Virus record (IMG/VR): IMGVR_UViG_3300034121_000706
Coordinates: 1-53,411 of that record
Source of the DNA: a virus
Length of the DNA stretch: 53,411 nucleotides
Reading direction: 5' to 3' (one strand)
Shown here: positions 475 through 46,756 of the stretch, piece by piece
How the letters are laid out: the number at the start of each line of letters is the position of its first letter
Numbering within the stretch: position 1 is the first letter of the stretch
Notes under the pieces: generated by a model
The model's database searches: none
What the model saw: only the letters and a program-made list of their open reading frames with translations
Told to the model about the DNA's origin: nothing
Program-made: the position numbers and the translations under genes

Positions 475-477
475 TAT

Positions 478-840: not shown

Positions 841-1139
841 ATAATATCGTCTATTTTAAAGGTGAAGCCATCTGCTAAAACAACCGTTATTACAACTCTC
901 CATTGACCTACTTCCCAATCTATCAATGCATCAACTAATAGCGAAAACTGATTTGCCGTTGGTGGCGTTATTCCATTTCCAACAGTAAATGGTTTATCTA
1001 CACCATCGTAACTTGCTACTGCTGTAATAGTAGCGGTAGAAATAGGCATGGGTGTTCCGTCTGCATAACTACATACATAAGTTTGACCTATAAATGTTGT
1101 ACCCTGTCTGTGTTCTACCATAATAATCTGATGTATCAA
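825..1139 (-). CDS. Small Ig-like/BppU-like structural protein
   Basis: The protein has 104 residues. An internal start at Met7 (MVEHRQG) fits better with related proteins that begin with a basic residue followed by QGxTF. The pattern QGTTF, a beta-sandwich middle and the tail motif GQWRVVI resembles small phage proteins that join fibres to baseplates (BppU N-terminal-like). It is the first minus-strand gene after the divergent region at 1140-1211, so that spacer should hold its promoter. Function is inferred; similarity is by eye only. Confidence 0.55.
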   Translation of the reverse strand: MIHQIIMVEHRQGTTFIGQTYVCSYADGTPMPISTATITAVASYDGVDKPFTVGNGITPPTANQFSLLVDALIDWEVGQWRVVITVVLADGFTFKIDDIIWVKL

Positions 1140-1211
1140 AAATAAACCTTATTAAATATCTGTAAGCTAACTTTTGAGTTACAGAAGGCTTTAGTTGACT
1201 ATTTTTACAGC
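1140..1211. promoter_or_regulatory. Divergent spacer with inverted repeat
   Basis: This 72-bp gap separates a leftward gene (start 1139) from the rightward 1448-aa gene (start 1212), so it should promote both ways. It holds the inverted repeat CTGTAA-N13-TTACAG and, on the plus strand, AACTTTTG, one mismatch from the Bacteroidota -7 box TAnnTTTG. Parts of it (AATATCTGTAA, TTTTGA, TAGTTGAC, GCATGG, in order) recur at 14443-14516. Confidence 0.4.
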
Positions 1212-11489: not shown

Positions 11490-12833
11490 CTATACTCCGT
11501 AGAAGAAGCCATGTGCGTTTAAGCATTTCATTACCAACATCATTTTAGATGAATATGCACGTTCAAAACATCTGTCGTTAGATGAACGAACACCACCATC
11601 CACTAAAGGAGTGTGACCGTTTTTCTGTGTCATAATCATTTTTTCAACTTTGCCTGTAAATCCTTTCACATACTTAATCTGTGTAGCAGCACCGTCTTTC
11701 GTTTTAGAAACGTTTAGGAACAACAATGAATTTGCATAGTTGATTCCACCGGAAACTGGCGCAGGAATTAAGTCAAAAATATGTAAGTTGTGTAAGTGTA
11801 AGATTGCACCTCCAAATGCGTAAGATGTAACATCGAATCCTGCTTTACCTGCACGTCTTTCAGCAGTAAATGAACCTGCACCGCCAACTGTAAAGTAGTC
11901 TTTCAACGCCTTCTTAGTTTTAGCAATAGCAGTAGAACCACCTAATACCAACCATTCGCCTTCTGCATACGGAGAGTTTTTCACCAGAGCAGTACAGATG
12001 TCTTGTAAATCATCTTCTGCAATGTTACCCGCCCATGTTCCAACAGTTCCGCCTGTCATAATGTTGGCAATAATACCATCACCTGAAATCGCACCACTTG
12101 TTAATGATGTAGGGGATGCCGTAGCTTCACCGAACAATACATAGTTAGATACCGCAAGGTTGAACTCTTTTACATGAGTTTGCTCGTCAATCGAGTGGTA
12201 GTATTTAACCGTACCTTCTTTATTTCCAACCCATGATAATTGAGATTCTTCATCATAGCAGAAATGTTTGTTCTGACTGATGATTTGCGCCACAGCAGTA
12301 CGCTGGTTTGGCTTGTAACGTCTGCCATCGCTTAACGTTCCACATGGTGCAGTAACGTTTGCTACCCACATAATTTGACCGGCTGCTGCAATGTTTGCTG
12401 CCAAAATAGCTTCACCGTCAACCGCTTCAACAGTTAATACGTGATTTGGTGTAGTTGCGATTTCAGTAACCTGTACCAATTTCTGTTTGTCACCACTTCC
12501 TGATGGCAATAAAATGTAGTCACCGATTGCAAAATACGGATCAGTTTCAGTCAACGTCAATTCCGCAGTAGTAGTACCACCACCAGTAGACGATGTAATT
12601 GTGTACAGTTTGATGATTGCGCCTTCTTCCGCCCAATTCAGTGTAGATGATTCCGCTACACCTTCACCGATGTATTCTAAGATTTGTGGCAAGTTGTATT
12701 TCTCTGCCGTTTTAGCGATTAATGCATCCCATGAAGGTTTGCCGTATGCAGATACAAATAAGTTATTGTACGTGCAATCCCCAACTCTTGTCGCCATTTC
12801 GTTGCTTGGGGTTACTGTTTCTGTGTAAGCCAT
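11490..12833 (-). CDS. Probable major capsid protein
   Basis: The protein has 447 residues and lies directly after a probable scaffold gene and before small head or fibre genes, the usual place for a major capsid protein. Residues 1-70 are helical (KPSWDALIAKTAEKYNLPQILEYI). A beta-rich insert spans about 78-160 (YFAIGDYILLPSG), like an inserted domain. Residues 165-260 read like a capsid P-domain/E-loop region (HFCYDEESQLSWVG), and the C-terminal half contains LVLGGSTAIAKTKKALKDYF. The HK97 fold is inferred from context and length; no signature motif is diagnostic. Confidence 0.7.
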   Translation of the reverse strand: MAYTETVTPSNEMATRVGDCTYNNLFVSAYGKPSWDALIAKTAEKYNLPQILEYIGEGVAESSTLNWAEEGAIIKLYTITSSTGGGTTTAELTLTETDPYFAIGDYILLPSGSGDKQKLVQVTEIATTPNHVLTVEAVDGEAILAANIAAAGQIMWVANVTAPCGTLSDGRRYKPNQRTAVAQIISQNKHFCYDEESQLSWVGNKEGTVKYYHSIDEQTHVKEFNLAVSNYVLFGEATASPTSLTSGAISGDGIIANIMTGGTVGTWAGNIAEDDLQDICTALVKNSPYAEGEWLVLGGSTAIAKTKKALKDYFTVGGAGSFTAERRAGKAGFDVTSYAFGGAILHLHNLHIFDLIPAPVSGGINYANSLLFLNVSKTKDGAATQIKYVKGFTGKVEKMIMTQKNGHTPLVDGGVRSSNDRCFERAYSSKMMLVMKCLNAHGFFYGV

Positions 12834-14547: not shown

Positions 14548-15885
14548 TTACAATCCTAATTCATTGATTAAAGTTTGTGCCATACGGTGTTTGCTGCCAA
14601 TTTTGCCGTCTGTCATTCCTTTGATTAGTTCTTCGTATGTATATGGTTTTTTAGTTTTTGGATTTAATGTGTTTTTATACTCGTACATTAGTTTTTCTTT
14701 CGGTATCTGTGCTACTTTAGATGCGTATTGTGCGTAACCTTGTGGAGTTGCCATATACGACATATCGCCTTGTGATTTTAACGTGCTATCATCCCATGTT
14801 GGCTGTACTGTTGGTGTATTAGCTTGTTGCTGACCGTATGACAATAAAGAACCATCACCTTTAACGATTGGCTGTAATACACCTATTCCAGTCTGATTTT
14901 TACCATTCATTGTTTCGTATGTATTAGGTAATAAACCGCTTAGGTTAAATTGTGGAGTTGTGCTTGTTGTAGTTGGCTGTACTGTTGGTGTTGGTATAAC
15001 CTTAGGTGTAGGCATTGCAGTCATTGGCGTACTCATAGCCACATCTTGTTCCGTTAATACTTTCGGTGTTTGTTCTGCAAATAACTTATCGTTCTGTGCT
15101 GTACGTGCTAACACCGTTGCATTTTGACCTGCACCAATACCTGCATTAAATACATTACCAATACCCTTATTCACTAACTGCTCACCGTAGTTACGCCTTG
15201 CCTTAAATTCAGGTAAGTCAACATTTGTGAATTTATCAATTCTACCTTTTTGCATTGCGCTATCTTCCTGCATTTTTCTTGCAATCAATCCATCTAATAT
15301 TCCGCCTTGCTGTGTTTTAAATGCCAACTCACTTGCACCAATATTGCGTATTGCATCGTTATTAGCAGATGAATTAACTTGACTTTGCGCTGCGTAAGAT
15401 GCAACATCACCACCGCTTGATACTTTAGCTACCGCATCGTTCTTAGCGTTCTGCATAGCCATATCTCTCATCATCTTCTCACGGATAATCGGATCGCCAA
15501 TCTGTGATAATCTTTGTACGTCTGCTAATCGTGCTGATAGCTGTTGATTTGGTAACTGTTCGTATGGATATTTAGGTGCTTTCGTTTTGCCGAGTATTTT
15601 TGCACCGCCAATCATCTGACCTAAACCTAATACGCCACCTGCTGCATTCATAGCGGTATTTCCTATCTCTGCGGTTTTAGCAATTTTATTATCCGCTTTA
15701 CCTTTTGCTAATAGTGTTGCGTTGTATTCATCAGATGCTTTCTTTAGTAACTCGTCTTGTTTCTTATCACCTGTGCTAACAATAGTAGTTGTTCCATCAG
15801 GATTTAACATTAATCCCTTTGAAAGCAAATCTTTCCTTAGTGCTTCTAACTGTTCTTTAGTTAAATCGGTTGCCGTCTGTGCCAT
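14548..15885 (-). CDS. Candidate internal/ejection protein
   Basis: The protein has 445 residues. Residues about 70-105 are Gly/Ala-rich and hydrophobic (MNAAGGVLGLGQMIGGAKIL), a membrane-active look typical of podovirus ejection proteins. Residues 110-260 are Gln/Ala-rich helices. Residues 285-335 are Pro/Thr-rich low complexity (PTPKVIPTPTVQPTTTSTT). The end is a basic helical region (KNTLNPKTKKPYTYEELIKG). It overlaps the upstream 162-aa gene by 29 bp and ends before a terminator. The ejection role is inferred from composition and neighbours. Confidence 0.5.
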   Translation of the reverse strand: MAQTATDLTKEQLEALRKDLLSKGLMLNPDGTTTIVSTGDKKQDELLKKASDEYNATLLAKGKADNKIAKTAEIGNTAMNAAGGVLGLGQMIGGAKILGKTKAPKYPYEQLPNQQLSARLADVQRLSQIGDPIIREKMMRDMAMQNAKNDAVAKVSSGGDVASYAAQSQVNSSANNDAIRNIGASELAFKTQQGGILDGLIARKMQEDSAMQKGRIDKFTNVDLPEFKARRNYGEQLVNKGIGNVFNAGIGAGQNATVLARTAQNDKLFAEQTPKVLTEQDVAMSTPMTAMPTPKVIPTPTVQPTTTSTTPQFNLSGLLPNTYETMNGKNQTGIGVLQPIVKGDGSLLSYGQQQANTPTVQPTWDDSTLKSQGDMSYMATPQGYAQYASKVAQIPKEKLMYEYKNTLNPKTKKPYTYEELIKGMTDGKIGSKHRMAQTLINELGL

Positions 15886-16345
15886 ATTCTAAATCGCTTT
15901 CTCTGAAAAATCTGTTTTCTCTAATCTTTTCCTTTTGGAAGTCTGCCAAACTATCCATTTTTGCTTCTCTGTTTTCAAGTACAGGTTTTGCCTTATTCTC
16001 TGCAATTTTCTTTGCTATTAATCCACCAAACAGTTCCGCTATCGGAGATAGTATACCACCTACAACTGGGATTGTTTTCATTATCCCACCTGCGATACCT
16101 GCACCTCTCTGTTGTCCAAAGTCCTGTGCTTGTTTCATGGTATAATCGCCACCATAGTCAAAGTTACCTTGCGATAATACCTTTCCTATCTGTGCGATAC
16201 CCTCTATCCCACCTTTGGCTATGCTCATCGGATCTAAACCACCGAGCATATTACCCATGCCGCCACCGCTTTCCTGTTGACCTTGCATACGATTAGCCAT
16301 ATCTTTATTAAGATTGTCCTGCATATACTTGTCTACCATACCCAT
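15857..16345 (-). CDS. Small internal protein candidate with membrane segments
   Basis: The protein has 162 residues and is Met/Gly/Gln-rich at the start (MQGQQESGGGMGNMLGG). Two hydrophobic glycine-rich stretches follow (AKGGIEGIAQIGKVL; GIAGGIMKTIPVVGGILSPI), then a basic charged tail (KKIAENKAKPVLENREAKM). Such membrane-active sequences beside a giant polyvalent protein suggest an ejected or internal virion part. It lies 34 nt after the polyvalent gene in the same operon. No family was recognised. Confidence 0.5.
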   Translation of the reverse strand: MGMVDKYMQDNLNKDMANRMQGQQESGGGMGNMLGGLDPMSIAKGGIEGIAQIGKVLSQGNFDYGGDYTMKQAQDFGQQRGAGIAGGIMKTIPVVGGILSPIAELFGGLIAKKIAENKAKPVLENREAKMDSLADFQKEKIRENRFFRESDLEYGTDGNRFN

Positions 16346-16379: not shown

Positions 16380-19300
16380 TTACTTTTTGATAATCTGCTT
16401 TTTCATTTCACCACGTACCTTATTGTTTATCTGATTAAATACGGTTTCATTTATTCCGTAGAATGTCAACAAGTCAGCCATTAACATAATCTTAGCGTAA
16501 GTTTTTTGCTCATCTGTTAAACTTAGGCTTAAATCCCCATCCTGCGAACTACTCGTTTTTCTTAATTCTTCTTTAAGTTTAAAGTCAGAAGGGTTTTCTA
16601 TAAATGCTTTTAATACATCTGCCGGAACTGTGCTGTTGCTTACATCCATTCTGCCCTTAACGTTATTAAAGAACATATCTCGTCTTGTATATCTGCCGTT
16701 ATGTACAATAGTATAATCCTTCCCTTTGTAGGTAAATACTGAAACTTGTGATTGTGATTTGTAATCACCGAATGCGTTATTATCTGTTATGATATTAATA
16801 TCGTCTTTTAGGTTTAATAACTGATTGTAACCAACACCAACCGTACCGCCACTAAGTATATTAAAGTCCGTACTTCTGTTGTAATTTGGAATGATGCCGG
16901 TGTTTGTTTTAAATATGTGGTTATACAAAAAGTTTATGGCAGGTTTTGTAGCCATATTGTCAACCATTGGCATTGTTCCATACACTAAATCCTGCAATAT
17001 GTTATTTACAAAAGAAGATTTAATCTGTTCAGCTTTTCTAAGTTTCTCTAATTCAGCTTTTTCTTTTTCCGCTTCTGTTTCCTTTTCCTCATCATCATCA
17101 CCCAATCCAAGTTCTTTTAATAGTGCTGGTATTAATTGTGTTGCAACAAATGTTCCGATACCTAATTTAACGGCATTGAAAGCTATCTGTTCTGTTATAT
17201 ACGCACCAATATCACGACCTGCTTCTATCCTATCATCACCATTCGCTATATTCATGGTATTATCAACTAAACGTGCTTTTGCCTGTACTGCAAATGACAT
17301 GAATGGTAACGCTAATTGTGTTAATCCTTTTGCACTACCCCAAACTTCTGCTTGTCCTGCTTCTGTATTCGCACCTTGCGCTGTCTGAACCATTGTTTCA
17401 GCGTATGCCATCGCTTCCTTGTTTGGATTCTTAAATTCGTTATTTTCGTCAAATGCCAGGTTATTATCACGTAGGTATTTCTTGTAAAATGTGATCCATG
17501 AAATATCCGCAGCCAAAATATCAAAACTTCTTAATGGGTACATAGATAAATCCGAAAAGAAATCCCTGCCTTTGCCAATAGCTTTTAGTATTTTCTTAGC
17601 ATTGCCATCAGATATGTTTTTCTTAATGGTTGTGTTATCGTAATATCCACCTGCACCCTCTGCCCGTCTTGCACCAATCTCTGACTGTGCAAATAATTTC
17701 TGTAAATTCTCTTTCTGTCTTTTATTTCCAAATAACATAGTAAAATCCAAACCTTTTATATTTCCTTTACCTGCCGAGTTAAGGTATGTTGACATCAATA
17801 CAGTAGACTGCTTTAACACCTGCGTAATACTACCCAATGCAATAGTTCTTGATATTTTTGTAGCTTCATTCAGTAAATCATCCACAATCGTTGTTTCTTC
17901 GTATTTTGAAGTGCCAACTATTGTTTGTAATCTCTTTTTAAGTAAATCAAAGTTTTTAGCACCAAGTAATTCCCTTAGTTGCTTGTTATCAGAATTAAAT
18001 GCATTTGCAAGTGTGGTTATATCCGCAGATGTATTTATGTCATACTCGTTATCTCCGAGTGCCTTCATCTGTCTATTAATGAAATTAAAATCAAGTCCTG
18101 TGTTATCGTTTAATGATTCATAGTTTGCACGGTCAATCATTGACTTTGACTTCTTCTTTGTTATTCCTGTGCTACGTGCATCATTCATTAACTTCTCGCC
18201 AGTGTCACGTACCGTATCACCGGTTAAACTTGTAATGGATAATTTGGTGTATGAATTATATTCTTCAATTTCTTTATTGTGGAATAATAAAGAGTTCTCA
18301 CGGAAACGTGGTTTTTGTTCCGCATGATTGTCAGTAAAGAATTGCACCACTCGTTTGCCCTCTGAATCTATCTTAGACATATTATCGGCAATATCCTTTA
18401 GCTGTTGTCTGCCACCAATAACTTCATCTAATGCTTTCTGTAATAAGTCTGCTTGTTCCTTATACCCTTCTTTATTTATGGTTCGTAAGTTCTCAATATT
18501 CTTTTCAATGATTCTTTTCCACCGTGCAATATGTTCCGCTTCTTTAATATCGTCACCAATTTTTGTTTGTATAACTGCTGCGTATATGCTTTGTCGCATC
18601 TGACTGATAGGCTCAAATACAGATGATTTAAACTTCTCTGCCTTAAATGCCTTTTGCAGATTATGTGAATATGTTTTTGTTTTTGCAATACCACGCATTA
18701 GATTATTAATGCCTGACGCTTCCATTAACTTCGCACCAAGTTTTTTACCTTTTGCCATTGCAACAGATATTTGCTGAAAATTTCTGAACTTGCTTCCACC
18801 TTCTGACAGTTTTCTAAATTCACCGATTTCTGATTTAAGTGTATTCATCTTTGAATTTACTTCAACCGCTTTCTGTTGTGCTACAAACGCACCGCCACCG
18901 CTATAATCATTGTTCTGTGTAATGCCATTTATCAGCTTCAATACTCTTGCCATTTCAGTAGCAGTCATATCATCTAACTTCACGTTTAGTAAAGCATCAG
19001 TAATTTCTTTCTCTGCCGGTGACTGTGTAATTACACCAACTGAATTTGCCAATAGGTCTTTCAGTTCACCAATCTTGTTGTATGTTGCGGTAATGAAGTC
19101 CTGGCGTTTCTGTTCTGTCTTGATTTCTTTAAACGCTTCCACCATGTCACGTTCTTCATCTGTCAATCCGTACTTCTTAATATCATCTTTCGTGATAGAT
19201 TCAAATACTTCACGCTGTTGCGGTTCGTTTAAATCATCGAATGTTTTATCGTCACCGAATTTAGCTTTTGTTTTATTATCCAATACCGTAAAGAATGTCA

Positions 19301-22300
19301 TTGCATCGTCTTCTACAATATCGTTAATAGCGTTACTATTTATTTCGTCTTGTTGTGCTTTCACGTATGCCTGTACTTCATCGTACACTAATGTACTTTC
19401 CGCATCTGTCGGTTGTTTTACGACATTTGACGCTTGTTTCACTTTCTCTGCCAGTTCCACATACTTTGCAATATCACTAACGTCTAATGGATTTATAGTA
19501 GCAAAATCCTGTAATACCCCTGTAAGTTTACCCGACTGCACACCGCCCTTGCGTTTTGAACGTGCCTTAATTACTTCATATAATGTCTTTGCTTTTTGGT
19601 AAGTACGTTGGTCTGCTAAGTTTGCGATTTGGTTTATGATTTTACCTAAACGTACTGTACTGTTTTTCTCTACTGCGGTTGTGGCAAGGTTAATTAGTTT
19701 CTCTGCCTGTTTGCCCGTAATGCCGCCTAAATTGCCTTTAATTAATGCGGTGATATCAGCAACCATTTGTTTCTGTTGTTGCTTTAAACCCGCCTTATTT
19801 GCTGAATTATCGGCTTTTAGGTTATACACCAATAACTTGTATTTTATTTTTACCTTATCCGTTGCACTTAATGGCAGTGCTTCGTAAATCTTCTCTAATT
19901 GAGAAGTGGTAAACATCGCTTTTAGTGCAGGATTCTGTTTAATTTCTTCAATAAATGCGTCACGTTGGTCTGTATCAAAATTAAAGTCTGTTGCTTCTAA
20001 ATATGCTTGTGCTACATCGTATGCCTTTCCGATTTCTTCTTTTGATGGATTGTTGACTATCTGAAACAAAGGCTGTCCAAACTCTGCCATTTCTTTCAGT
20101 TCCGGTGTTATATCTATGGAATATTGGGTTGATGTTCCACCTGTTTCAGTTCCAGATGCCGCTTCTTGCGCTTGTTTCACGCTATTATACACACCAACTT
20201 TTTCTTCTCCACGCCATAATGTATATTTAATTCCGTCACTTGTGCCTATTTCATAGGTAATATCATCAAGTTCTGCTTTCCATTGTGGAAATTTACCTAT
20301 ATAACCAGTAACTTCCCAATCATTAAAGTAAACTTCATTTGAAGGTGAAGAATCAGATAATTTAACTTCAATTGCTTTCGGCTCTTGCTTAAACAAACTC
20401 TTTGCTACATTACCTACTATACCTAGACTACCTTCTGTTGGTGAACCATAAAAGCCTTTCATTCCTTTGCCACCAATTTTCAAATCCACTCCACGAACTG
20501 TATGAAATTCGGGGTTTTCTTTCATATTCTTTTTCCACTCTCTGCCCTTATTTCTATCAGCACCTTCAATAAGTTTTTGTGTCAAATCCTTACCAACAAT
20601 GCTTTCCATTTCTTGTGGCGTAACTTTCTTTCCGCTTCTTGAATATGGTTCAATTTCTTGCCCTTGTTTATCTTCTACAATTAGTTGATATGTTCCATCA
20701 TTGTTTTTACTTGCACTTGCAGCGTTAATTTGCTTACTCAAATCATATCTTTCATTCTGTTGCTCTCCTGTTGTCCAAGCTATTTTATCTACACCTTGTT
20801 TAACTGCTTCTTTAAGGGCTACTTTTAAACCAAGTTTAGTCCAAGCGTTTGTGTCGGTTACGAATGGTGCTTGTGGTGTTTTTCTTTCTTGATTAACTGC
20901 TTTATGCCATTTAAGCATTAAATCTTTATTGTCATAAGGCACTTGAAAATCATTAAGAATATCATTACTTTTAGCCATTGCCGTAGCCAAGCCTTTCCAA
21001 TCACTAAATCCTGCCGTTTCGTTCATTTTCTTCAAAACAACAACTGCATCTTTACCTAATTGAGTATCCCATTCAAAAGATGGTTCTTTAAATCCTTCTT
21101 TTTTCCCAGACTGCCCCCAATCGCTTTGTACTTCCTCCAAAAATAACACCTTATTGCCGTTCACATCGGTACGTGTATTCATTCTTAAATGAACAAGGAT
21201 ATTTGGCTCGTCAAAATGTGATGATTTGAATGTCTTTTTTCTTTGAGTATCAAGTTCGCTATTGTATTTAAAGCCTGAATAATATTTATTTAAAGCCTCG
21301 CTATAGCCACCTTTTTTCAAAGCATCCAAAGCCTCAATGGCTTCCGGATAATCCTTATCATTTTTAAATTCTTCACTTCTACCCTGTTCATCGTAAATTT
21401 TCATTCTACGCAAAGCACCTTCTGAATCGTTTAAGCCTAATTTTTCTAATGCCGGCTTGAGATACTTATCCCTAACTACATGATACGGCTCACCTTTTAT
21501 TTCTTTTTCAGGCATCGTAACCAACACCTCTTTGTAGTTGCTTTTTTCGCCTTCTAGTTGATAATCTGAGAATTTGGTTTGATTTCTAAAAGCCTCTTTC
21601 TTTTCGTCTGAGGACATATTGCGAATGTTGTCATTTATTTCATCAATTGCTATATCAATTGCATCTTCTTTGCCATCAGAATCATCTTTATATACTTCAA
21701 TTCTTCCATCATTATCAAAATTAACATACCATGATGTTTCATCTTCGTCAACAGAAGTTACATTGTTCCTGCGTATTTTTAATTCACCATCATCTTTCAC
21801 TACCTCAACAACTTCAATTCTATTTTCTTTTAGATACTGCTGAATTTCTGCTTTAGATACTGAACCTTGTTGTGAACTTAACCAATCCGTTAATCCTGTC
21901 CATTTCGCTTCATCGCCTTTGCCAAATTTATCTAGCCATTGTTTTGCCGGTAATTTATCAAATTTAGTTTCACCAATAATTTTTTCTAATGGAGAATAAA
22001 ATCCGTTTACTACTTCTGCGCCGCCATTAATTTCTTTTACCTTAATGTTTTCGCCTTGGAATGTAATTGTTTTTTCAGATGATTTCTGAGTACCAATTTT
22101 ACTATTTAAAATCTTACCACCCAATAATTCACCTACTACTTTTTTAGTGAACATATTGAACTTATCATCGGCACTAAGGTTTTTAATGCCTAATTTATCG
22201 CCTATGGTCTTAAAGAAATCAGATAGCCATTCTTTAAAGCGTTTCAGCATTGTAGGATTGCCATTGAATAACTGCTCACCTTTGTTTCCGATTGCAGTTA

Positions 22301-25300
22301 CAAGTGCTTCTGCCTGGATTTCAGCAATGGACTTTCCTTTGTATGCCGGATTCTTTTGTATCTCTGCGATTAATGCACGACCTTGTGGTGACAGTTTCAG
22401 TAATTCTATACCACGTTTAAATCCTTCGGGAAATACAGACTGCCATATGTGCCCGAATTCATGTATCGGTGTGTTTGCGTTAAGATTATCTGTATTTATG
22501 AATACTTTGCCATCGGGTGTTTTAAATCCGTAGATTGTGCCGTCTTTAGTTTTAACATCGGTTATCGCTATGCCTTTGTCTTGTAATTCTTTTTTAGCAT
22601 TTTCAAAATTATTCTTACCAAACAACTCTACTTTCACATTCGGAAATGCCTTTTTAAGTTTGTCTATCAGTTTCGTGAATACACTTTCTGATATTGGTGT
22701 GAATGATTTGTCTGTGGATTGTAGGTCTAAGTCTTTTTCTTCTTTGACTTGTTGGCTATTTTCGCTGCTGCTAATATCAGCGCTACTACCTTGCCTTTCC
22801 CCGCTTTTGTCTGTGGTTGTTTCGGTTGTTCCATTTGCTTGTTCATATTTTAGTGCTTCTTCCCAATTAATTGAACCATCTTCATTTACAAATTTAGCAT
22901 ATAAATCTGAATATTGCTTAAATTCTTTTTCATCAGATTCGGATATATTACTTAATGACTGCAATTCACTTTCAGATACATTATCATATTCTGATAAGAA
23001 ATCTGTTGTTTCATTTGCCTTCTGCGCCCAAAATAAATCTTCTCCGGTTACATCAATTCTCTCATAATTACCACCAAAACCACGTACAAGCGGTAACGAT
23101 TCCATGCTTCCGTACTCGTTTATTGCGTTGGCGACACGATTGATATTGGTAGATTCTGTTTTACCTGCGTCAATGTCTGCTTTTGCACGTCTGATTTCTT
23201 GCCAGGTTAAACCTAATTGCGATGCGTCAATATGATAATCAGTATCATTTCCGTTCCACTCAAACCAACTCTGTGCAATTTCTTTTACCTTTGCAATTAT
23301 ATCGGGAGATACCGAAACTTCTGTTGGTGCAATATTTATCTTTCTTATCTTCTTGCCTTTCTCGTTCAATACATCAATCTTATCACCTAATTTACCCTTT
23401 ACGGTATATCCTAAATCAGATGCAAGTTTCTGTATCTTCTGACGTATCTCTGACTTTCTTGTTTTCTTATTTGTCGGAGTAGAATTGTATTCACGCATTA
23501 AGCCAACTAATCTGTCGTGCTTATCGTTCTTTAGTTTCTGTTCGGATGATACTTGTTCAGCTTTCTTTTGTGGTTCTGCTTTGGGTTGTACTTCGTCAAC
23601 ATAAGACTTTTGCTCACCTTTAAACTTCACTTTTTCCTTATCGAATACCACTAATTCACCTTCTTGTGTCTTGCTTTCACGGAAATAGATACCATCGTAT
23701 CCTTGTGCCTTTAACTCGTTTGTGGTTAATTCAGCAAGTTTCTTTATTCCTTTATCGTTAAGATTGTCAAGCGTTACCCTACCATCAGGCAATTTTTGAT
23801 AGTCAACGGTATCAAATTCGTCAAACTTATCTTTATTGGCATTTAAAACTTCTTGTCTTTTGTCCACCAATCCATAGTCGCCGTTCTCCACCACAAGCGG
23901 ATTTTTGATGTCAACTTCTACCCTTTCTGCCTTATTGTCTTTGGTTTCGTAGCGATTGCCTTTTTCTGTGGAAACAAACGTGCCTAACGCTTGATTTTCA
24001 CCCATGTTTTTCCCTTTTACATGGGTAAGATTTTTGGATTTTATTTCATCAATAATAGCATTAGGCTTTTTTGTAAGTAATTCTTTTTTTAGATTATCTA
24101 CATATTTATCTACTAGCAATGCAGGTGGAACACCATTTGGATAATCTCTCTGTATTCTTTCTGCAATTATTACAGCATCATTTGCATTATCAAACTCAAT
24201 ATTTGATGCAGGCAATTGACTGTCTTTTTCACCAATATTTAACAGGACTTTATTGCCAAAGTCGTTTACTCTGTGTTTTTCAGTTTCATAATAAACATTT
24301 GAACCATTTCCTAATTGTCTAATAGGTTTTATCTCTTGTTCATTTTGTTGAACTTCTTTTCCGTTGGACACATTTTGTCCATCTCCTTGTTGAACTCCGT
24401 TATCGTTTTCTGGTGTTTGTTGTATTCCTGTGACGTTATTTTGTTCTTGCCCTGCGTTAATAGGTTCAACTGGTGTAATAGGATTCTCTTGCTCATCTTG
24501 TATTCTTTTATACTCTACATTCGCCTGATTAGATGCTTCATCTTGCGGTATAATTAATTCAGAACGGTCTTGTCCGAACTGCTCTTTCGCCTGTTCACGA
24601 TTAATAATTGTACCGTCTGACAGCTTAAACAACCCTTCCGCTTGTCTATCAACTTGCGAAATATCTTGTCCATCTGCTTGTGCTTTTAATATAGCTTCTG
24701 CATGGTTTTTACCTTCGTACTTCTTGCCATTAATATTGATAACCGCACTTGTAATTTGTACCGGTTCAACACCTTTCGGTTTATTCCTTACATCTGTTAA
24801 TGCGGATTTCTCTACTGTGATAATTCCATCTTCACCAATTTCAGGATTGTTGGTATTTATTACCACTTCACCATCTGCAAGGTCGTCAAGTATAGTAACT
24901 TCTGCACCATTGTAAGTTGCAATCTTATCTTCCTCTATCAGCGTATTCGGATTGGCAATATTACTCAATGCTTTTTCCTTGCCTTTATTGTACGTGCCGT
25001 CTGCAACTTCTTCTAAACGCTTATTAATGTCGTCTAACAGTAATTGATTCTTCTTATTCAACACTTCGTCATTCACCTGCGACATCGTATTTTTTAGCGT
25101 GTACTTTTTTAATAATAGTTCCGCTAAATCATCATGCAAATCTTCTTTAATAGTAGGCTTAACCGAATTGTACTGTTTCGATATTTCTTCAAATGCTTTT
25201 ACCTCGTAATCAAACTTACCTTGTTCAATATCTCCATCTGCCAACATCTTCTGTCGCATATCCACGAACTGTTGTGGATTATCAAGTGCGTTCTGTAATG

Positions 25301-27692
25301 CTATCTTGCGTTGTTCGGGTACTGAATTAGCAACTTCAATAGGTGTCATTAGTAAACTCGCCATCGTGGTAATCATAGCGGTTTCTATCGTCTGCTTGGT
25401 ATCAAAGAATGGTTTATTCAAATCTTCAAATCCTTGCTGACCGTTTTTCTGTGCTTTGGTATTGTAGTATGTTTCCGTTGCACGTTGTACTGCCGGTTCT
25501 AATACCAATTCCTCTAAGTTTTCACCGAACGTATTCTTTACACCTTCCTTAGCCATACGTTTAGCGTACTGTCCTATTGACATTTCGCCTGAACGGATTA
25601 ACTGCACATCTGCTTTGGATATATTGTTTGATATAAACTTACCTATACTTTTACTTGCCGTACCTTTTACGATATTGGCTTCCATTGGATTCACCAAAGT
25701 AACCATACCTGTCATTATAGACGTTAGTGTGGCAAAGTCATTCGCTTCTTGTGGTGTCAGTCCTGCTGTTAATCCGCTTTCGTACATATCTCCGTACATC
25801 TGTGCTGCGGAAACGCCTATTGTTGTTGCGGTTGATACCGTTCCTGCCGTTCCTGCACCCGCTACTAAACCTGTTGCACCGCCTGTCAATGCAGCAGTTG
25901 CCATCATCGTACCCATATCAAGTATCGTTGGTGTGGCTTTGGTAATTAATGTTGAGAAACTGAAATCACTTTCGGTTTTATATGCCGTTGGGTTTTCATT
26001 GTACTTATCTGTGATTTCCTTTTTAGTCTTATCATTTATATTCCTGAACTTATCATCACGTACATCGTTTTTAGGCTTACCGTTTTCATCTAACATTACT
26101 TTATAACCGTCTACATCTGCATACTTCTGTATAATATCACGTTGTACATCAGTAGCGGTAGGATTAAGTATGTCACGTTTCTTACTTGCGTAAATTGCCT
26201 GGTCGAACATTTTATCAAATACATCGTACTTGTTTTCGTCACCAATGGGATTTAAAATATCTAACATCTTTGGTACAGATGCCAATGCTTTTAGTGTTCT
26301 GCCTAATAGCTTATCGCCTTCATCTGCAACCTTTGCGCCTGTGAATGTTTTATCGGATTCTCCTGTAATCAAATTCTCTGCCATTACAACAGGACTTAAT
26401 TGAGATAGCGCACCCATAATATCACTCGCCTTTCCTAAGATACCTTTACTCTGATACGCTTTTTTCATCGCATCTTTTTTGGCTTGTGCCTTGTCGCCTT
26501 CATCTAATAATTTACGATATTCTGCAAATTCAGGTTTACTTATCTCTGAATTTGCATCATTAGTTAATTGGTTTATTTTGTCGTTTATATTAAGGTATGT
26601 TGTGAAATCTTCATCTTGTACTTTAGAATTTATACCTTCCTGTTTTTTTAGTATTTCTTCTCGTCTGCCATCTATATCTTTTTCAATCGCCTGTATCTGT
26701 GCTAACTTAGCATTGTACATAGGTTCAGCCTGTTCTTTTGGTAATTGATTTTCTGTAATCTGTTTTTCTATATCCTTTAATTCCAAAACAAGTTTATCGT
26801 ATTCAGATTTTCTTTTTGTAGAGTACAAACCAAACTGCTGTGCTTCTGCCTGTATCTGTGTATTCTGTTTTGCTATATCTGTAAAGAAATCTTCACCGAA
26901 CTTAGATTTTAAAACACTTTCGTATGACTTACCTCTATCATTTAATGCTCTTATCTGTGCATCGTAAATAGACATTTCACCATTATATGCCTGTGCGTTA
27001 TTATTAGAGTTTGACTGTATTTCAAAATCTAATTCTTCTGCCGTTTTATCTTTATTTAAAAAATATTTTAGTTGGTCTTTGTCTGTATTTAACAACTCCT
27101 CTGTTGATAGTGTATTCACAATACTAAGTTTGCTTACGGGAGTTATTCCTTTATCTAACACTACTGTATTATCAGAAGATTTGTCTGTAACATCAACTAA
27201 GTATGGATTTTCTTGTTGTGCTATTTCAGGTTGTTCAGAAACTGTTGTGCCTTGTCCTAAAATAGATTTATCGGCAAATCCTTTTTGTCCGTTATCTATC
27301 AAATAATCACCTGTAATTTGCTGTTCTTTTGTCGGTATTCCGATTGGCTTCTTTGTTGTTATTGGTGTTTTAGTGGTTGCTGTATTATTGAATGTAGGAA
27401 TTTTAAACATAGAACTATTAAAACCTAAATCTTGTGTAGTATATTTTAAAACTCCTACACCTTTAGTTGATGTTTGTTTTTGTGAAAACAGTTCGGGAAA
27501 TTTTGAGTTTATAGTTTTAAAGTCACTCTTGTATTGTGGATTGTTTGCTGTTGCCACATATTCTTGTAACAACTTTGTATCATATCCTTTAAGTTCAGGA
27601 AACTTTGAGTTTATAATATTCCAATCGCTTTTGTATTGCGGATTATTTGCAGTAGCAACATACTCCTGTAATATATCTTTTACTTCCGCCAT
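16380..27692 (-). CDS. Giant polyvalent virion protein (ART, zincin, LPD38-like)
   Basis: The protein has 3770 residues. Visible parts in order: two copies of a 27-residue unit (about 8-34 and 42-68); a helical charged region; a Gly/Ala-rich hydrophobic stretch near 590-650; an insert KYEGKNHAEAILKA near 986; an ADP-ribosyltransferase-like domain (about 1215-1358: HVKGK at 1224, GYDGIYF at 1331, then VVFDKEKVKF); a zinc metallopeptidase-like domain with HEFGH at 1744-1748; and a polyvalent domain from FYSPLEKII (1898) through LEEVQSDWG and WTTGEQQNERY to about 2440. Long coiled coils follow. A C-terminal LPD38-like part begins near 3268 and contains QLALPFMSF. Such proteins are thought to enter the host with phage DNA and act on host targets. 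Substrates cannot be told from sequence. Confidence 0.85.
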   Translation of the reverse strand: MAEVKDILQEYVATANNPQYKSDWNIINSKFPELKGYDTKLLQEYVATANNPQYKSDFKTINSKFPELFSQKQTSTKGVGVLKYTTQDLGFNSSMFKIPTFNNTATTKTPITTKKPIGIPTKEQQITGDYLIDNGQKGFADKSILGQGTTVSEQPEIAQQENPYLVDVTDKSSDNTVVLDKGITPVSKLSIVNTLSTEELLNTDKDQLKYFLNKDKTAEELDFEIQSNSNNNAQAYNGEMSIYDAQIRALNDRGKSYESVLKSKFGEDFFTDIAKQNTQIQAEAQQFGLYSTKRKSEYDKLVLELKDIEKQITENQLPKEQAEPMYNAKLAQIQAIEKDIDGRREEILKKQEGINSKVQDEDFTTYLNINDKINQLTNDANSEISKPEFAEYRKLLDEGDKAQAKKDAMKKAYQSKGILGKASDIMGALSQLSPVVMAENLITGESDKTFTGAKVADEGDKLLGRTLKALASVPKMLDILNPIGDENKYDVFDKMFDQAIYASKKRDILNPTATDVQRDIIQKYADVDGYKVMLDENGKPKNDVRDDKFRNINDKTKKEITDKYNENPTAYKTESDFSFSTLITKATPTILDMGTMMATAALTGGATGLVAGAGTAGTVSTATTIGVSAAQMYGDMYESGLTAGLTPQEANDFATLTSIMTGMVTLVNPMEANIVKGTASKSIGKFISNNISKADVQLIRSGEMSIGQYAKRMAKEGVKNTFGENLEELVLEPAVQRATETYYNTKAQKNGQQGFEDLNKPFFDTKQTIETAMITTMASLLMTPIEVANSVPEQRKIALQNALDNPQQFVDMRQKMLADGDIEQGKFDYEVKAFEEISKQYNSVKPTIKEDLHDDLAELLLKKYTLKNTMSQVNDEVLNKKNQLLLDDINKRLEEVADGTYNKGKEKALSNIANPNTLIEEDKIATYNGAEVTILDDLADGEVVINTNNPEIGEDGIITVEKSALTDVRNKPKGVEPVQITSAVININGKKYEGKNHAEAILKAQADGQDISQVDRQAEGLFKLSDGTIINREQAKEQFGQDRSELIIPQDEASNQANVEYKRIQDEQENPITPVEPINAGQEQNNVTGIQQTPENDNGVQQGDGQNVSNGKEVQQNEQEIKPIRQLGNGSNVYYETEKHRVNDFGNKVLLNIGEKDSQLPASNIEFDNANDAVIIAERIQRDYPNGVPPALLVDKYVDNLKKELLTKKPNAIIDEIKSKNLTHVKGKNMGENQALGTFVSTEKGNRYETKDNKAERVEVDIKNPLVVENGDYGLVDKRQEVLNANKDKFDEFDTVDYQKLPDGRVTLDNLNDKGIKKLAELTTNELKAQGYDGIYFRESKTQEGELVVFDKEKVKFKGEQKSYVDEVQPKAEPQKKAEQVSSEQKLKNDKHDRLVGLMREYNSTPTNKKTRKSEIRQKIQKLASDLGYTVKGKLGDKIDVLNEKGKKIRKINIAPTEVSVSPDIIAKVKEIAQSWFEWNGNDTDYHIDASQLGLTWQEIRRAKADIDAGKTESTNINRVANAINEYGSMESLPLVRGFGGNYERIDVTGEDLFWAQKANETTDFLSEYDNVSESELQSLSNISESDEKEFKQYSDLYAKFVNEDGSINWEEALKYEQANGTTETTTDKSGERQGSSADISSSENSQQVKEEKDLDLQSTDKSFTPISESVFTKLIDKLKKAFPNVKVELFGKNNFENAKKELQDKGIAITDVKTKDGTIYGFKTPDGKVFINTDNLNANTPIHEFGHIWQSVFPEGFKRGIELLKLSPQGRALIAEIQKNPAYKGKSIAEIQAEALVTAIGNKGEQLFNGNPTMLKRFKEWLSDFFKTIGDKLGIKNLSADDKFNMFTKKVVGELLGGKILNSKIGTQKSSEKTITFQGENIKVKEINGGAEVVNGFYSPLEKIIGETKFDKLPAKQWLDKFGKGDEAKWTGLTDWLSSQQGSVSKAEIQQYLKENRIEVVEVVKDDGELKIRRNNVTSVDEDETSWYVNFDNDGRIEVYKDDSDGKEDAIDIAIDEINDNIRNMSSDEKKEAFRNQTKFSDYQLEGEKSNYKEVLVTMPEKEIKGEPYHVVRDKYLKPALEKLGLNDSEGALRRMKIYDEQGRSEEFKNDKDYPEAIEALDALKKGGYSEALNKYYSGFKYNSELDTQRKKTFKSSHFDEPNILVHLRMNTRTDVNGNKVLFLEEVQSDWGQSGKKEGFKEPSFEWDTQLGKDAVVVLKKMNETAGFSDWKGLATAMAKSNDILNDFQVPYDNKDLMLKWHKAVNQERKTPQAPFVTDTNAWTKLGLKVALKEAVKQGVDKIAWTTGEQQNERYDLSKQINAASASKNNDGTYQLIVEDKQGQEIEPYSRSGKKVTPQEMESIVGKDLTQKLIEGADRNKGREWKKNMKENPEFHTVRGVDLKIGGKGMKGFYGSPTEGSLGIVGNVAKSLFKQEPKAIEVKLSDSSPSNEVYFNDWEVTGYIGKFPQWKAELDDITYEIGTSDGIKYTLWRGEEKVGVYNSVKQAQEAASGTETGGTSTQYSIDITPELKEMAEFGQPLFQIVNNPSKEEIGKAYDVAQAYLEATDFNFDTDQRDAFIEEIKQNPALKAMFTTSQLEKIYEALPLSATDKVKIKYKLLVYNLKADNSANKAGLKQQQKQMVADITALIKGNLGGITGKQAEKLINLATTAVEKNSTVRLGKIINQIANLADQRTYQKAKTLYEVIKARSKRKGGVQSGKLTGVLQDFATINPLDVSDIAKYVELAEKVKQASNVVKQPTDAESTLVYDEVQAYVKAQQDEINSNAINDIVEDDAMTFFTVLDNKTKAKFGDDKTFDDLNEPQQREVFESITKDDIKKYGLTDEERDMVEAFKEIKTEQKRQDFITATYNKIGELKDLLANSVGVITQSPAEKEITDALLNVKLDDMTATEMARVLKLINGITQNNDYSGGGAFVAQQKAVEVNSKMNTLKSEIGEFRKLSEGGSKFRNFQQISVAMAKGKKLGAKLMEASGINNLMRGIAKTKTYSHNLQKAFKAEKFKSSVFEPISQMRQSIYAAVIQTKIGDDIKEAEHIARWKRIIEKNIENLRTINKEGYKEQADLLQKALDEVIGGRQQLKDIADNMSKIDSEGKRVVQFFTDNHAEQKPRFRENSLLFHNKEIEEYNSYTKLSITSLTGDTVRDTGEKLMNDARSTGITKKKSKSMIDRANYESLNDNTGLDFNFINRQMKALGDNEYDINTSADITTLANAFNSDNKQLRELLGAKNFDLLKKRLQTIVGTSKYEETTIVDDLLNEATKISRTIALGSITQVLKQSTVLMSTYLNSAGKGNIKGLDFTMLFGNKRQKENLQKLFAQSEIGARRAEGAGGYYDNTTIKKNISDGNAKKILKAIGKGRDFFSDLSMYPLRSFDILAADISWITFYKKYLRDNNLAFDENNEFKNPNKEAMAYAETMVQTAQGANTEAGQAEVWGSAKGLTQLALPFMSFAVQAKARLVDNTMNIANGDDRIEAGRDIGAYITEQIAFNAVKLGIGTFVATQLIPALLKELGLGDDDEEKETEAEKEKAELEKLRKAEQIKSSFVNNILQDLVYGTMPMVDNMATKPAINFLYNHIFKTNTGIIPNYNRSTDFNILSGGTVGVGYNQLLNLKDDINIITDNNAFGDYKSQSQVSVFTYKGKDYTIVHNGRYTRRDMFFNNVKGRMDVSNSTVPADVLKAFIENPSDFKLKEELRKTSSSQDGDLSLSLTDEQKTYAKIMLMADLLTFYGINETVFNQINNKVRGEMKKQIIKK
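27390..27673 (-). repeat. Tandem 27-aa repeat encoded at the start of the polyvalent gene
   Basis: Two copies of LQEYVATANNPQYKSD followed by INSKFPEL are separated by a 7-residue linker (period 34 residues, 102 bp). They differ at a few residues only (WN to FK region), so the duplication is recent or under selection. Confidence 0.8.
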
Positions 27693-27694
27693 AT

Positions 27695-29023
27695 TTATCT
27701 GCTTTTTACCGTTGTTGTTGCCTTGTATTCTTTAGTCTTTTTTATGGTCGTTGCTTTCTCTGACTGCGTATTGGTAGTCTTTGTTTGAACTGGTACATCT
27801 TGCTGATTTGCTTCAACATTGTAGTACCCGTTATCATCCGTAAAATCGTACGTGCCTATCTGTTGACCTATCTGTTTTTCCTTATACCCGTATGCAGGTT
27901 TAAACCTATCCGCCAATGCTTGTTTTCCAACCTCATCATTACCATAAACACCGTCTATTTTATCACCATCGTAAACAATCACATAGTATTTGTCTTCTTT
28001 TAACGGTACACTCTGTTTTGTTCTTTTATCAACTCCTTTCGTTACTCCATATTTAGATAAATCACTACCCTTAACTGTTATTAAGGTTCTCGGACTTTCT
28101 TCTACCTTTCCAAAACTGTTATTTTGTAATATGCCGAAACTTCCGCTAAATGGTGTATTAGGTTTATTTAATACAAATTCTAATTTATCTTCAAATGTAC
28201 CACCGGCAACCTCTTGTTGTGATTTCAAGTTCTCAAACTTATCTCTTTGTAATCCTAAATTAGAATAATCCAATCTCATTTTATCTTTATGTTGTTGCAT
28301 ATCCAATGCTAACTTAGCAGCGAACTTACTGTCGTACATTGGAGGTATAAGGCTTTCACGTATTTGTGCGCCATCTTGCTCAATCTTATCAGCTAATTCA
28401 GGATTCTTAGACTTCATATCCTCTATCTGATTATCTACAAAATCATAATCATCTTTCCATCTTTGTAGATATGATTGATATTGATTCTGGTCGTATATTG
28501 CGATAGGTTTACTATACGCTTTTTGCAACCCTTTTATTTTTGCAAACGGATCTTCTATCTGATATTTACCTAACTGTTCAGAAGTAAACGGTTGTGTTGC
28601 ATCAGGACTACCCGATATAGTATTTGGATTTAACTTTCCTTTTTCAAATTGTAATTGGTTTTGTCTATAACCTTTCAATTCTTTGCCAGTCTGCAAAAAT
28701 TCCTGATACATCTTATTCCACTCTTGCGAGAATTGTAAGTGTGTTGGATTATTCTTCGGTTTCGTTACATCTATACCAACGGAACGACCTTTTACTGCAT
28801 AATCTTTCAGCTTTGTCGCTAAGTCAAAGTATTTCTGTGTTAAATCAGTATCGGTTTGTATGTCTTTTTCTGTGGTTACATCAGGAACGGATATATCGTC
28901 TAATGACGGTAATCCCCATGCAGCAGCACTCACATCACGCAAGTTTGGTAATGCCTGTTGGTATAACGGACTTTGTGGTACGTTCACATCTACAAGTCCT
29001 GCGCCTGTGTTTCCGTATATCAT
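27695..29023 (-). CDS. Hypothetical portal-adjacent protein
   Basis: The protein has 442 residues, is soluble, Gln/Lys-rich and mostly helical (NQIEDMKSKNPELADKIEQDG; LGLQRDKFENLKSQQ). The N-terminus (YGNTGAGLVDVNVPQSPLY) resembles the beginnings of internal virion proteins that pack around the portal. The C-terminal 60 residues are Thr/Lys-rich. It overlaps the portal stop by 4 bp (ATGA) and ends 2 nt before the polyvalent gene start, so the three are probably translated and assembled together. Identity is not known. Confidence 0.5.
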   Translation of the reverse strand: MIYGNTGAGLVDVNVPQSPLYQQALPNLRDVSAAAWGLPSLDDISVPDVTTEKDIQTDTDLTQKYFDLATKLKDYAVKGRSVGIDVTKPKNNPTHLQFSQEWNKMYQEFLQTGKELKGYRQNQLQFEKGKLNPNTISGSPDATQPFTSEQLGKYQIEDPFAKIKGLQKAYSKPIAIYDQNQYQSYLQRWKDDYDFVDNQIEDMKSKNPELADKIEQDGAQIRESLIPPMYDSKFAAKLALDMQQHKDKMRLDYSNLGLQRDKFENLKSQQEVAGGTFEDKLEFVLNKPNTPFSGSFGILQNNSFGKVEESPRTLITVKGSDLSKYGVTKGVDKRTKQSVPLKEDKYYVIVYDGDKIDGVYGNDEVGKQALADRFKPAYGYKEKQIGQQIGTYDFTDDNGYYNVEANQQDVPVQTKTTNTQSEKATTIKKTKEYKATTTVKSR

Positions 29024-31203
29024 ACTGTTTGTTCTTTACTTAATTCCTGTTTCTTTGTATCTTCCTTCATTGCCGTTTTCTGCAAATCTACATTTCCTTT
29101 GTACTGCGTTTTCTGCATTTCACGTTGCGTAATAGCCTGTTGTGTCTGCTGTCCTGCTTGTTGTTGCATCTGTGTATTTGCCAACATCGCTTCTTGTTGT
29201 GCCTGTTGCATTTGCATTTGCATCGCCTGGTCTTTCTGCTCTTTCTTCTTCATTACAGATATGTAGTCAACAACCGCACCCTTCACATCTTCCTGTGACT
29301 TCATTTCTAATTCCAATGCTTCGTGTAGTGGTAAGTTATGTTGTAATCCGGCAACGATATATTTTTCAAGAACGCTACGTGGCATGATCTGATTTCTTAC
29401 TACTATCTCATGCTCATCATCCGCAATATCTTCATCAATATCTAAGAAGTCAATATACAAGTCACCAATAATATCTCGCCATCTGTCAGGGTTATTCTTC
29501 CATGATATACGGATATGCTGTGCGTGTTTGGTAAGTAGCTTACTTTCAAACATAAAGAATCCACTGTAAAATCCTTTTGATGCTTTGGCACTCTGCGCAA
29601 TAGCCATTTCAGTCACACCGTTCAACTGATTTGCGGACTGAATAACACCTTGTCGTGCATCATTCATACCGCTAATGCTTTTCATTTCATTATCAGTAAA
29701 CGACATTAGATTCATTAATCCTGCAATCGTATTTCCTAAACCGCTATCGGTAGTATTACTTGCACCACCGCCCTGTATCGGTGCGCCTTCATTCTGTTGT
29801 GAGTTGTAAAATTCAACACCATGTCCTTTTAAATAATGGAACATTGTGTTAATTGCAGACTGTCCATCACCCCATTCTTTCGGCAATCTTGATGTATCAA
29901 TTCTTGTAACGCTACCATTAGACTTTGTAATTTCTAACTGCACTTTTGTCCATAAGTAGTTAATGAAATCCTGCGTTTGCATGATGTCCATAACCATAGA
30001 CTTGCTTTGTCCGTTAATATACAAAGGTCTGTATGATGTAATTGACGTTGTAGTGTGTCCGTAATCGGTATAGAATGTTGGTTGGTTCTCAACGTTTCCG
30101 TATTCCACTAAATATTTATCAGCAATTAGTGTTGCTTTCTTTAATACATTTCTTTCCTTGCGTACCACCTTGAACGATACTGCATCTGCGTACTTACGTT
30201 TATCAACCTTTTTGGTTGCTTCCTCACCTACCAATACCTCAAATGTTTCCAATCCGTTCTCATACACCGCTTCTACACCTGCAATCTTTTCAATATCCAC
30301 CCACTCCCAAGAAGATATTAATACCCTTGCTTGTCCTGTTTCGTATGGTTCAAAGTATTTTTGGTTATCAAACTCCACATAATACTCACCATTTGAAGAT
30401 GATACGTTGTTTTTTAAGCGTTCCTTTATTTCTTCAACCGCTTCTGCCGATAATTTATATTTCTCTGTCACTTCACGTACATCTCCGTAGTACACCTCAC
30501 CAATACCTTGTGTCTTAGACAAGAAATCATCGTCATTAACATTACGTGGGTAAAAGGTATTTAACGGTTGTACCCTTGCAATTTTTGGCATACCGTTTAT
30601 AATACTTGTACGTGCATGGCACTCACCGGCAACCACCGCATCTAATAGGAACTGTAACCTAATGTATCGGTAACTCCAATATTCAACCGTATATCTTAAA
30701 CACGCTTCAATAGCACGTTCCGATATATCTTTGATGTTTTCTAATTTTTCCTGTACATCTTCATCATCTTCAACTTCACTTGCAATATTGATACCGCTTT
30801 CTTCCGCAGCCATATCCATTAAAGGCTTAATTGACATATCTGCCAATACCTTTAATTTGTAATCCATTTTACGGGTTTTTGCTTCCTTGTTTACCGCATT
30901 CGCACTCGCTTCAAATCCTAAGTCAATCAAATCACCAATAAGTGTATTCACTTTGGTTTTGATTTTATTAAGATTCATGTAAACAACTGGCGTTGTCAGC
31001 TTGTTGTCGCCAACCTGAATATCGTAACCGCTAAATAAATCTGTGAATCCTGTGTCGCCTTGTGTGCCGTGAAAGTAATCGTAACATAACGACATTTGGC
31101 TTTTTAGAATAGAGTGCCTGTCAATAGACTGCTTCATAAGCCGTCTTATCCAGTCTTTATAATAATCTTCCGTATTGATTTTTTTATCAACCTCTTGAGC
31201 CAC
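29020..31203 (-). CDS. Portal protein
   Basis: The protein has 727 residues and lies in the usual place, after the terminase and before ejection and head genes. The N-terminal region is typical of large portals of podoviruses (DWIRRLMKQSIDRHSILKSQMSLCYDYFHG). It is followed by VYMNLNKIKTKVNTLIGDLIDLGFE, then a wing/stem-like helical region near 500-600 (SDTTDSGLG-type linkers, TEMAIAQSAKASKGFYSGFF). The C-terminal 100 residues are Gln/Met-rich coiled coil (MQQAQQEAMLANTQMQQQAG). The portal forms the dodecameric channel through which DNA enters and leaves the head. Assignment rests on size, context and overall pattern. Confidence 0.75.
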   Translation of the reverse strand: MAQEVDKKINTEDYYKDWIRRLMKQSIDRHSILKSQMSLCYDYFHGTQGDTGFTDLFSGYDIQVGDNKLTTPVVYMNLNKIKTKVNTLIGDLIDLGFEASANAVNKEAKTRKMDYKLKVLADMSIKPLMDMAAEESGINIASEVEDDEDVQEKLENIKDISERAIEACLRYTVEYWSYRYIRLQFLLDAVVAGECHARTSIINGMPKIARVQPLNTFYPRNVNDDDFLSKTQGIGEVYYGDVREVTEKYKLSAEAVEEIKERLKNNVSSSNGEYYVEFDNQKYFEPYETGQARVLISSWEWVDIEKIAGVEAVYENGLETFEVLVGEEATKKVDKRKYADAVSFKVVRKERNVLKKATLIADKYLVEYGNVENQPTFYTDYGHTTTSITSYRPLYINGQSKSMVMDIMQTQDFINYLWTKVQLEITKSNGSVTRIDTSRLPKEWGDGQSAINTMFHYLKGHGVEFYNSQQNEGAPIQGGGASNTTDSGLGNTIAGLMNLMSFTDNEMKSISGMNDARQGVIQSANQLNGVTEMAIAQSAKASKGFYSGFFMFESKLLTKHAQHIRISWKNNPDRWRDIIGDLYIDFLDIDEDIADDEHEIVVRNQIMPRSVLEKYIVAGLQHNLPLHEALELEMKSQEDVKGAVVDYISVMKKKEQKDQAMQMQMQQAQQEAMLANTQMQQQAGQQTQQAITQREMQKTQYKGNVDLQKTAMKEDTKKQELSKEQTV

Positions 31204-37423: not shown

Positions 37424-38011
37424 CTATAATTTATTTACATCTACATTATCAGCAGTATTCGTTTCAACCGTTTCCTTCTCCTTAACTTCCTCAATAACAT
37501 TATCCGGTACTTCATACTCAAAAGACAACTCCTTCTCAAAGAACTTAATCTGATCGTAGGTACTCTTTATCGTTTCATCCTTAATGCTCTTTGCCGTTGC
37601 ATTATATATCTTCACCTTCTCATCGGTATCATCCACATTCTTCAAACTCTTAATAAACTCCAACTGCGCATCCAGGTAATCTTCCAATACCTGTATCGTA
37701 TCACCAATCTTCTTACGTTTATTATTGTTTATGTCACGGTGATACACCACGATAGCATCCTCAACGTCTTTATTCTTTTTATCCAATATACGCTTACCTT
37801 TCACCGTTGGCTTATCCACCCACCACAACCCATCACATAACTTCAATGCCAGTAACCGTCTATCACCATCACTACGCATCCTGAATATTCCATTACTATC
37901 CGCCACATGAACCACATATTCCATTTCAGCACTATCCAACTTTGGAAACAGCTTCGCCAAACCCACATTGAGTTCAAATACATCTTTACCTGCTTCAATA
38001 CGGACTGTCAT
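37424..38011 (-). CDS. Hypothetical protein next to the methyltransferase
   Basis: The protein has 195 residues. The N-terminal 60 residues are beta-like (VRIEAGKDVFELNVGLAKLFPKL), followed by helices (LEDYLDAQLEFIKSLKN) and an acidic, Thr-rich tail. It overlaps the methyltransferase stop by 4 bp (ATGA), so the two are coupled. It might be a DNA or methyltransferase partner; the family is not recognised. Confidence 0.5.
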   Translation of the reverse strand: MTVRIEAGKDVFELNVGLAKLFPKLDSAEMEYVVHVADSNGIFRMRSDGDRRLLALKLCDGLWWVDKPTVKGKRILDKKNKDVEDAIVVYHRDINNNKRKKIGDTIQVLEDYLDAQLEFIKSLKNVDDTDEKVKIYNATAKSIKDETIKSTYDQIKFFEKELSFEYEVPDNVIEEVKEKETVETNTADNVDVNKL

Positions 38012-44930: not shown

Positions 44931-44942
44931 ACGGATCAAACT

Positions 44943-45004
44943 TCCACTAAACAGCAAGGTATTACCGGCAATTAATCAATTTTAAAACTAAAAATAATAA
45001 TTTT
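44943..45004 (+). repeat. Degenerate copy of the early leader repeat (D)
   Basis: TCCACTAAACAGCAAGG is followed by an AT-rich tail before ATG at 45005. It matches the better copies before 45319 and 46251 at the TCCACTAA..GCAAGG segment. Confidence 0.5.
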
Positions 45005-45256: not shown

Positions 45257-45260
45257 TCTT

Positions 45261-46168: not shown

Positions 46169-46191
46169 AGCGTAATTAATCAAACCACTTT

Positions 46192-46754: not shown

Positions 46755-46756
46755 CT

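Follow-up and report, generated by a model that had tools for sequence, protein, structure and literature searches.

Phage polyvalent proteins (Iyer et al. 2017, PMC5512222) are encoded in portal/terminase contexts and join ART, zincin metallopeptidase (MPTase) and unnamed domains in exchangeable order; two RimI-like GNAT families have also been described in them. One polyvalent protein, PTXU04_00025, is needed for plaque formation by phage PTXU04 (PMC11879866). In crAss001, large cargo proteins (gp45-gp50), the three largest of which are RNA polymerase related, are stored in head and tail and are thought to be extruded through the portal and tail (PMC10172136). A further large protein, gp74 of the Tenacibaculum phage Gundel_1 (2482 aa), is encoded near the portal gene and annotated as a structural protein, as are its homologues in phi38:1 and the elemo phages; in all three cases "structural protein" is the annotation of the record, its experimental basis untraced.

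Here we analyze a giant gene in a window of 53,411 nucleotides, which is one entire IMG/VR virus record. The product shares with the proteins of Iyer et al. its genomic context and its combination of domains, and differs from them in lacking LPD38, in carrying a large domain without a Pfam model (FYSPL, after its FYSPLEK motif), and in a tandem N-terminal motif for which term searches of that paper found no description. We consider it probable that the giant is an internal-virion polyvalent protein, carried as cargo and ejected, of a podovirus-like phage with, probably, a Bacteroidota host.

Results

A giant gene among the head and packaging genes

The frame of the giant gene is intact, with an ATG start and no internal stop (Table 1). 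A sequence-only reading had already reported the 3770-aa ORF and its share of about a fifth of the window, both of which hold (11,313 of 53,411 bases, 21%); the strand, which that reading did not give, is minus. Pfam and PHROGs searches with the giant alone returned nothing convincing, and relatives were therefore gathered: two loci through the C-terminal half, 80 through the FYSPL domain, 80 through the zincin, and a further 80 from bacterial and archaeal genomes. The same searches are consistent with the reported absence of an RNA polymerase domain, which sets the giant apart from the crAss001 cargo, to which it is likened by description. Residues 70-520 and 850-1120 are mostly without detected relatives, and residues 526-845 align with three other phage giants at E-values of 2e-5 to 4e-8 (small database).

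Table 1 Features of the giant gene and its neighbourhood.
Feature	Position	Strand	Residues in giant	Basis or remark
Giant polyvalent protein	16380..27692	-	1-3770	ORF, 3770 aa
N-terminal motif, copy 1	27591..27674	-	7-34	ILQEYVATANNPQYKSDWNIINSKFPEL
N-terminal motif, copy 2	27489..27572	-	41-68	
Part common to other phage giants	25158..26117	-	526-845	L097, L099, L103
ART domain	23622..24035	-	about 1220-1357	HMM and hhalign
Zincin-like metallopeptidase domain	22113..22703	-	1664-1860	
Unnamed FYSPL domain	20034..22025	-	1890-2553	possible GNAT-like core
C-terminal backbone	17130..19796	-	2633-3521	common to giants L164, L148
Hydrophobic segment, then acidic DDDEE	17118..17186	-	3503-3525	
Terminase large subunit (TerL)	31888..33864	-		phrog_6681, E 9.7e-32
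Portal protein	29020..31203	-		phrog_6547, E 9.5e-53
442-aa gene, directly upstream of giant	27695..29023	-		position
162-aa glycine-rich gene, downstream; possible small internal virion protein	15857..16345	-		position, sequence
445-aa gene, downstream; possible internal virion protein	14548..15885	-		position, sequence
Capsid-region protein	11490..12833	-		phrog_13704 "virion structural protein", E 6e-10

Along the minus strand, gene order is TerL, a 234-aa product, portal, the 442-aa product, the giant, the 162-aa product, the 445-aa product, a scaffold-like gene and the capsid-region gene, the last of which, by its position, likely encodes the major capsid protein. The 162-aa product had no Pfam or PHROG match and the 445-aa product no significant one. 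An upstream neighbour of 350-750 aa was present in 95 of the 117 related giants with an ORF directly upstream. The TerL is 20-26% identical to crassvirus terminases, and from this sequence comparison the phage may be a distant relative of the crassvirus order.

Elsewhere in the window, the product of 38008-39360 (minus strand) resembles a C5-cytosine DNA methyltransferase by its SPPCQSFSLAG motif. Furthermore, a 59-nt element occurs in four plus-strand copies (44936-44994, 45259-45317, 46190-46248 and 46744-46802), each of which stops 2-11 bases ahead of where a small ORF begins on the same strand. The core of the element lies above chance (four matches, a number reached in none of 100 shuffles), and the element is possibly a shared promoter or leader.

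ART and zincin domains

Built from 48 ART domains found in related phages, an HMM matched residues 1233-1356 of the giant with 42.7 bits, and hhalign returned 97.7% (E 1.5e-12), with control windows elsewhere in the giant scoring below 20. These results bear out the ART part that had been read from the segment GYDGIYF...VVFDKEKVKF (residues 1331-1357). The Pfam family PF18760 (ART-PolyVal) did not match the giant at E up to 1; it does match relatives such as L008, and was found by Pfam in 3 of 14 related giants. On its sequence, we file the domain as a putative ART that is related to ART-PolyVal and stands outside Pfam membership. Detection was by the profile route only, since a direct search for ART homologues found none in phages or viral contigs (plasmids only, at E≥2) and an earlier, too-short profile did not match the giant. 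The active site of ARTs is H-Y-D, with a first-strand motif that is usually YHGT. In the giant, candidates Y1248 and D1333 lie in the aligned region, and H1224 is assigned by position only; the first strand, expected to hold the histidine, falls outside the alignment, and its motif is divergent, which makes activity uncertain.

The HEFGH motif of the zincin occupies residues 1744-1748, as had been reported, and supplies H1744, E1745 and H1748, with E1795 as the distal glutamate. The four corresponding alignment positions (H90, E91, H94, E141) are invariant in 51 of 51 sequences, supporting the zincin part; a PDB sequence search with the region gave no match to a zincin. L008 (11528-12160) and L009 (11474-12136), both outside the 51-sequence set, carry EEAGH in place of HExxH and keep the distal glutamate; judged by this replacement, their zincin copies are probably inactive. 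Gundel_1 gp74 contains a homologous zincin (27.6% over about 200 residues); however, no FYSPL domain was found in it by HMM, and its remainder is not alignable to the giant. The homology of the phi38:1 and elemo proteins reaches our giant through the Gundel_1 protein, not directly.

The chain thus holds at least two domains of disparate activity (ART, zincin and FYSPL), its gene sits among the virion genes of a portal/terminase phage, and ART and zincin are backed by profile and alignment evidence: the giant is a polyvalent protein, the kind to which it had been assigned. Domain order varies between phages, being ART-zincin-FYSPL in the giant, FYSPL-zincin in L002 and ART-FYSPL-zincin-LPD38 in L008; such variation is to be expected in polyvalent proteins (PMC5512222). 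L002, a 61 kb IMG/VR phage whose best FYSPL segment is 58% identical, has the zincin and a duplicated N-terminal motif, but divides these parts between two genes (1775 aa and 1527 aa) and places the zincin after FYSPL, not before.

The FYSPL domain

FYSPLEK (residue 1898) and WTTGEQQ (residue 2306) had been suggested to mark a domain, and they belong to a true one, about 550-660 residues long, with more than 500 relatives (at least 556 viral stretches and 169 stretches of bacterial or archaeal genomes). FYSPL occurs on contigs (L170-L249) that belong to numerous bacterial phyla and to two MAGs of archaea (Nitrosotalea and Nitrosopumilus); these are probably prophages or contaminating phage contigs. 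Across 52 diverse sequences a polar set is conserved (H, R, R, E, E, Q, S, D, W, Q, D, R, Y), with the invariant positions at H2168, R2170, R2174, Q2189, S2190, D2191 and Y2415 of the giant, a pattern that would indicate an enzyme.

Among 52 members, no Pfam family matched more than two, even at E 0.1, and none of the Acetyltransf families matched any; NCBIfam gave no match at all, acetyltransferases included, on 48 members, and a PDB sequence search gave no credible match. AlphaFold predicted the domain of the giant with a mean pLDDT of 73.6 and a confident core, and the compact homologue of L009 with 86.6. With Foldseek against the PDB, the best E-values of the two models were 0.45 and 0.058, the latter to an unrelated ATPase; the best GNAT-type E-value was 0.077, and TM-scores to GNATs were at most about 0.3, possibly owing to long insertions. 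Such values, none better than 0.058, together with the lack of Acetyltransf matches, would suit a separate fold that is GNAT-like only locally, which we regard as a substantial possibility, though one we are inclined to doubt; it concerns the fold and not the main account. Against it, GNAT-fold proteins, including SSAT, HAT1, GNA1 and ICL2, form the great majority of the best 50 PDB matches of each model. (ICL2 is counted for its acetyl-CoA-binding C-terminal domain, which is GNAT-like, on the assumption that this part is the one aligned.) Among viral models, the best 26 matches are phage proteins that are uncharacterised or of polyvalent type, and acetyltransferases lead the matches that follow; the predicted order of strands and helices fits, on our reading, beta-alpha-beta-beta-alpha-beta-alpha-beta. 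On balance we favour a GNAT-like fold for FYSPL, the nearest folds of its models being GNATs, without individual significance.

Because no Acetyltransf model matches, FYSPL is taken as distinct from the GNAT families of Iyer et al. (PMC5512222); it may equal an LPD of theirs for which no Pfam model exists. An endolysin role was also considered, as 47 of the 52 members match phrog_7348, labelled "endolysin". FYSPL matches only positions 1803-1967 or so of this profile, whose length is 2564. The label most likely belongs to a different stretch of it; we judged it probable spill-over and rejected the role.

N-terminal tandem duplication

The two N-terminal copies are identical at 24 of 28 residues, and at 13 of the 24 identical positions their codons differ; their self-alignment scores 127 (z 21.5). 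A homologous N-terminal repeat is carried by L123. A plus-strand ORF at 27373-27735, also repeat-like, was dismissed as the antisense of these repeats.

Within residues 1-110 of related giants, we scored self-similarity by ungapped alignment of non-overlapping segments. The threshold, 40, was set once the FYSPL set had been inspected for the first time, and was then applied to the zincin and genome sets. The threshold was reached by 18 of 58 N-termini in the FYSPL set, versus 3 of 464 internal windows, and by 43 of 67 N-termini in the zincin set, versus 7 of 536 internal windows. After pooling and de-duplication, 59 of 120 giants had a duplication at positions 1-110; at seven other positions the counts were 4, 2, 1, 1, 0, 0 and 9 of 120, the nine being self-repeats in the last 110 residues, above the internal positions. 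When clusters of N-terminal sequences were counted instead, 21 out of 58 were duplicated, versus 2 out of 58 for residues 111-220 (Fisher 1e-5). Giants on genome contigs showed a weaker but present signal (8 of 40 N-terminal, 1 of 40 mid-protein). Other genes of at least 300 aa in the same loci were duplicated in 13 of 396 cases, which include several low-complexity sequences and two whose motifs are giant-like.

The duplicated motifs vary from phage to phage. In 58 repeat pairs, 349 of 734 identical residues (48%) have different codons, from which we take the copies to be old and conserved as protein sequence, and not to stem from recent slippage. No other protein of the window contained the motif clearly above background, so no partner is suggested. 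Literature term searches found no description of such a duplication, which does not by itself prove that none exists. We propose that the duplication is a tag for loading into the virion or for leading ejection.

C-terminal backbone

The C-terminal backbone aligns with the giants L164 (E 1e-16) and L148 (E 9e-10), and hhalign against the C-termini of other giants gave 97.8% and 90%, the latter for residues 3287-3482 against a set of 50 members. Only one hydrophobic segment is predicted in the giant. The LPD38-like C-terminus of the sequence-only reading did not survive: Pfam (LPD38 is PF18857) gave no match, and a local profile of 25 members gave 0.0 bits, with only the hydrophobic-acidic edge aligning. 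LPD38 is found in L008 and other relatives; in the giant it was rejected, the backbone matching other phage giants instead.

A conserved backbone and a gene near the portal would also suit a protein that is mainly an ejectosome or channel component of the T7 gp16 type, its enzyme-like domains degenerate or serving assembly only, and the loss of the first zincin histidine in L008 and L009 points the same way. The giant, however, has its HEFGH and distal glutamate intact, and the polar residues of FYSPL are strongly conserved, unlike those of a decayed domain; we hold this explanation to be unlikely.

Discussion

The position of the gene, the upstream 350-750 aa gene and the structural-protein annotations of distant homologues favour virion cargo, which lends indirect support to the ejection put forward in the sequence-only reading. 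That the giant is instead a non-virion host-takeover protein made early is very improbable: although we infer its packaging in this phage, the gene sits inside the minus-strand head/packaging block, and a conserved upstream partner precedes most related giants, as here.

As cargo, the giant would be made late together with the head genes, enter the procapsid near the portal, and be expelled through the portal and a short tail, either before the DNA or together with it. Both ends would be structural: the duplicated N-terminal motif probably docks the giant in the virion or leads its exit, and the hydrophobic segment of the C-terminal backbone may help passage through the envelope. The middle would consist of exchangeable enzymes. 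T4 Alt modifies host proteins, and by analogy the ART likely does the same; the zincin likely cuts the giant itself, freeing modules, or host proteins; and the GNAT-like domain would be a further enzyme. The sequence-only reading had also suggested action against host targets or defences; a PADLOC search gave no defence-related match.

More tentatively, we suggest for phage giants that a phage-specific N-terminal tandem motif serves as a docking/loading tag for the virion, alongside a shared, widespread and unnamed GNAT-like domain. By doubling the avidity, two copies would bind the tag to a phage-specific partner, for example the portal, core or scaffold.

Among phage giants, FYSPL is a very common module that lacks annotation, and naming it would also correct the "endolysin" label that spills over in PHROGs. 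How phages choose and load their giant cargo is largely open. If the proposal is true, a tag that can be found through its own duplication would allow cargo to be catalogued from genome to genome, and would also aid loading tests in isolated phages.
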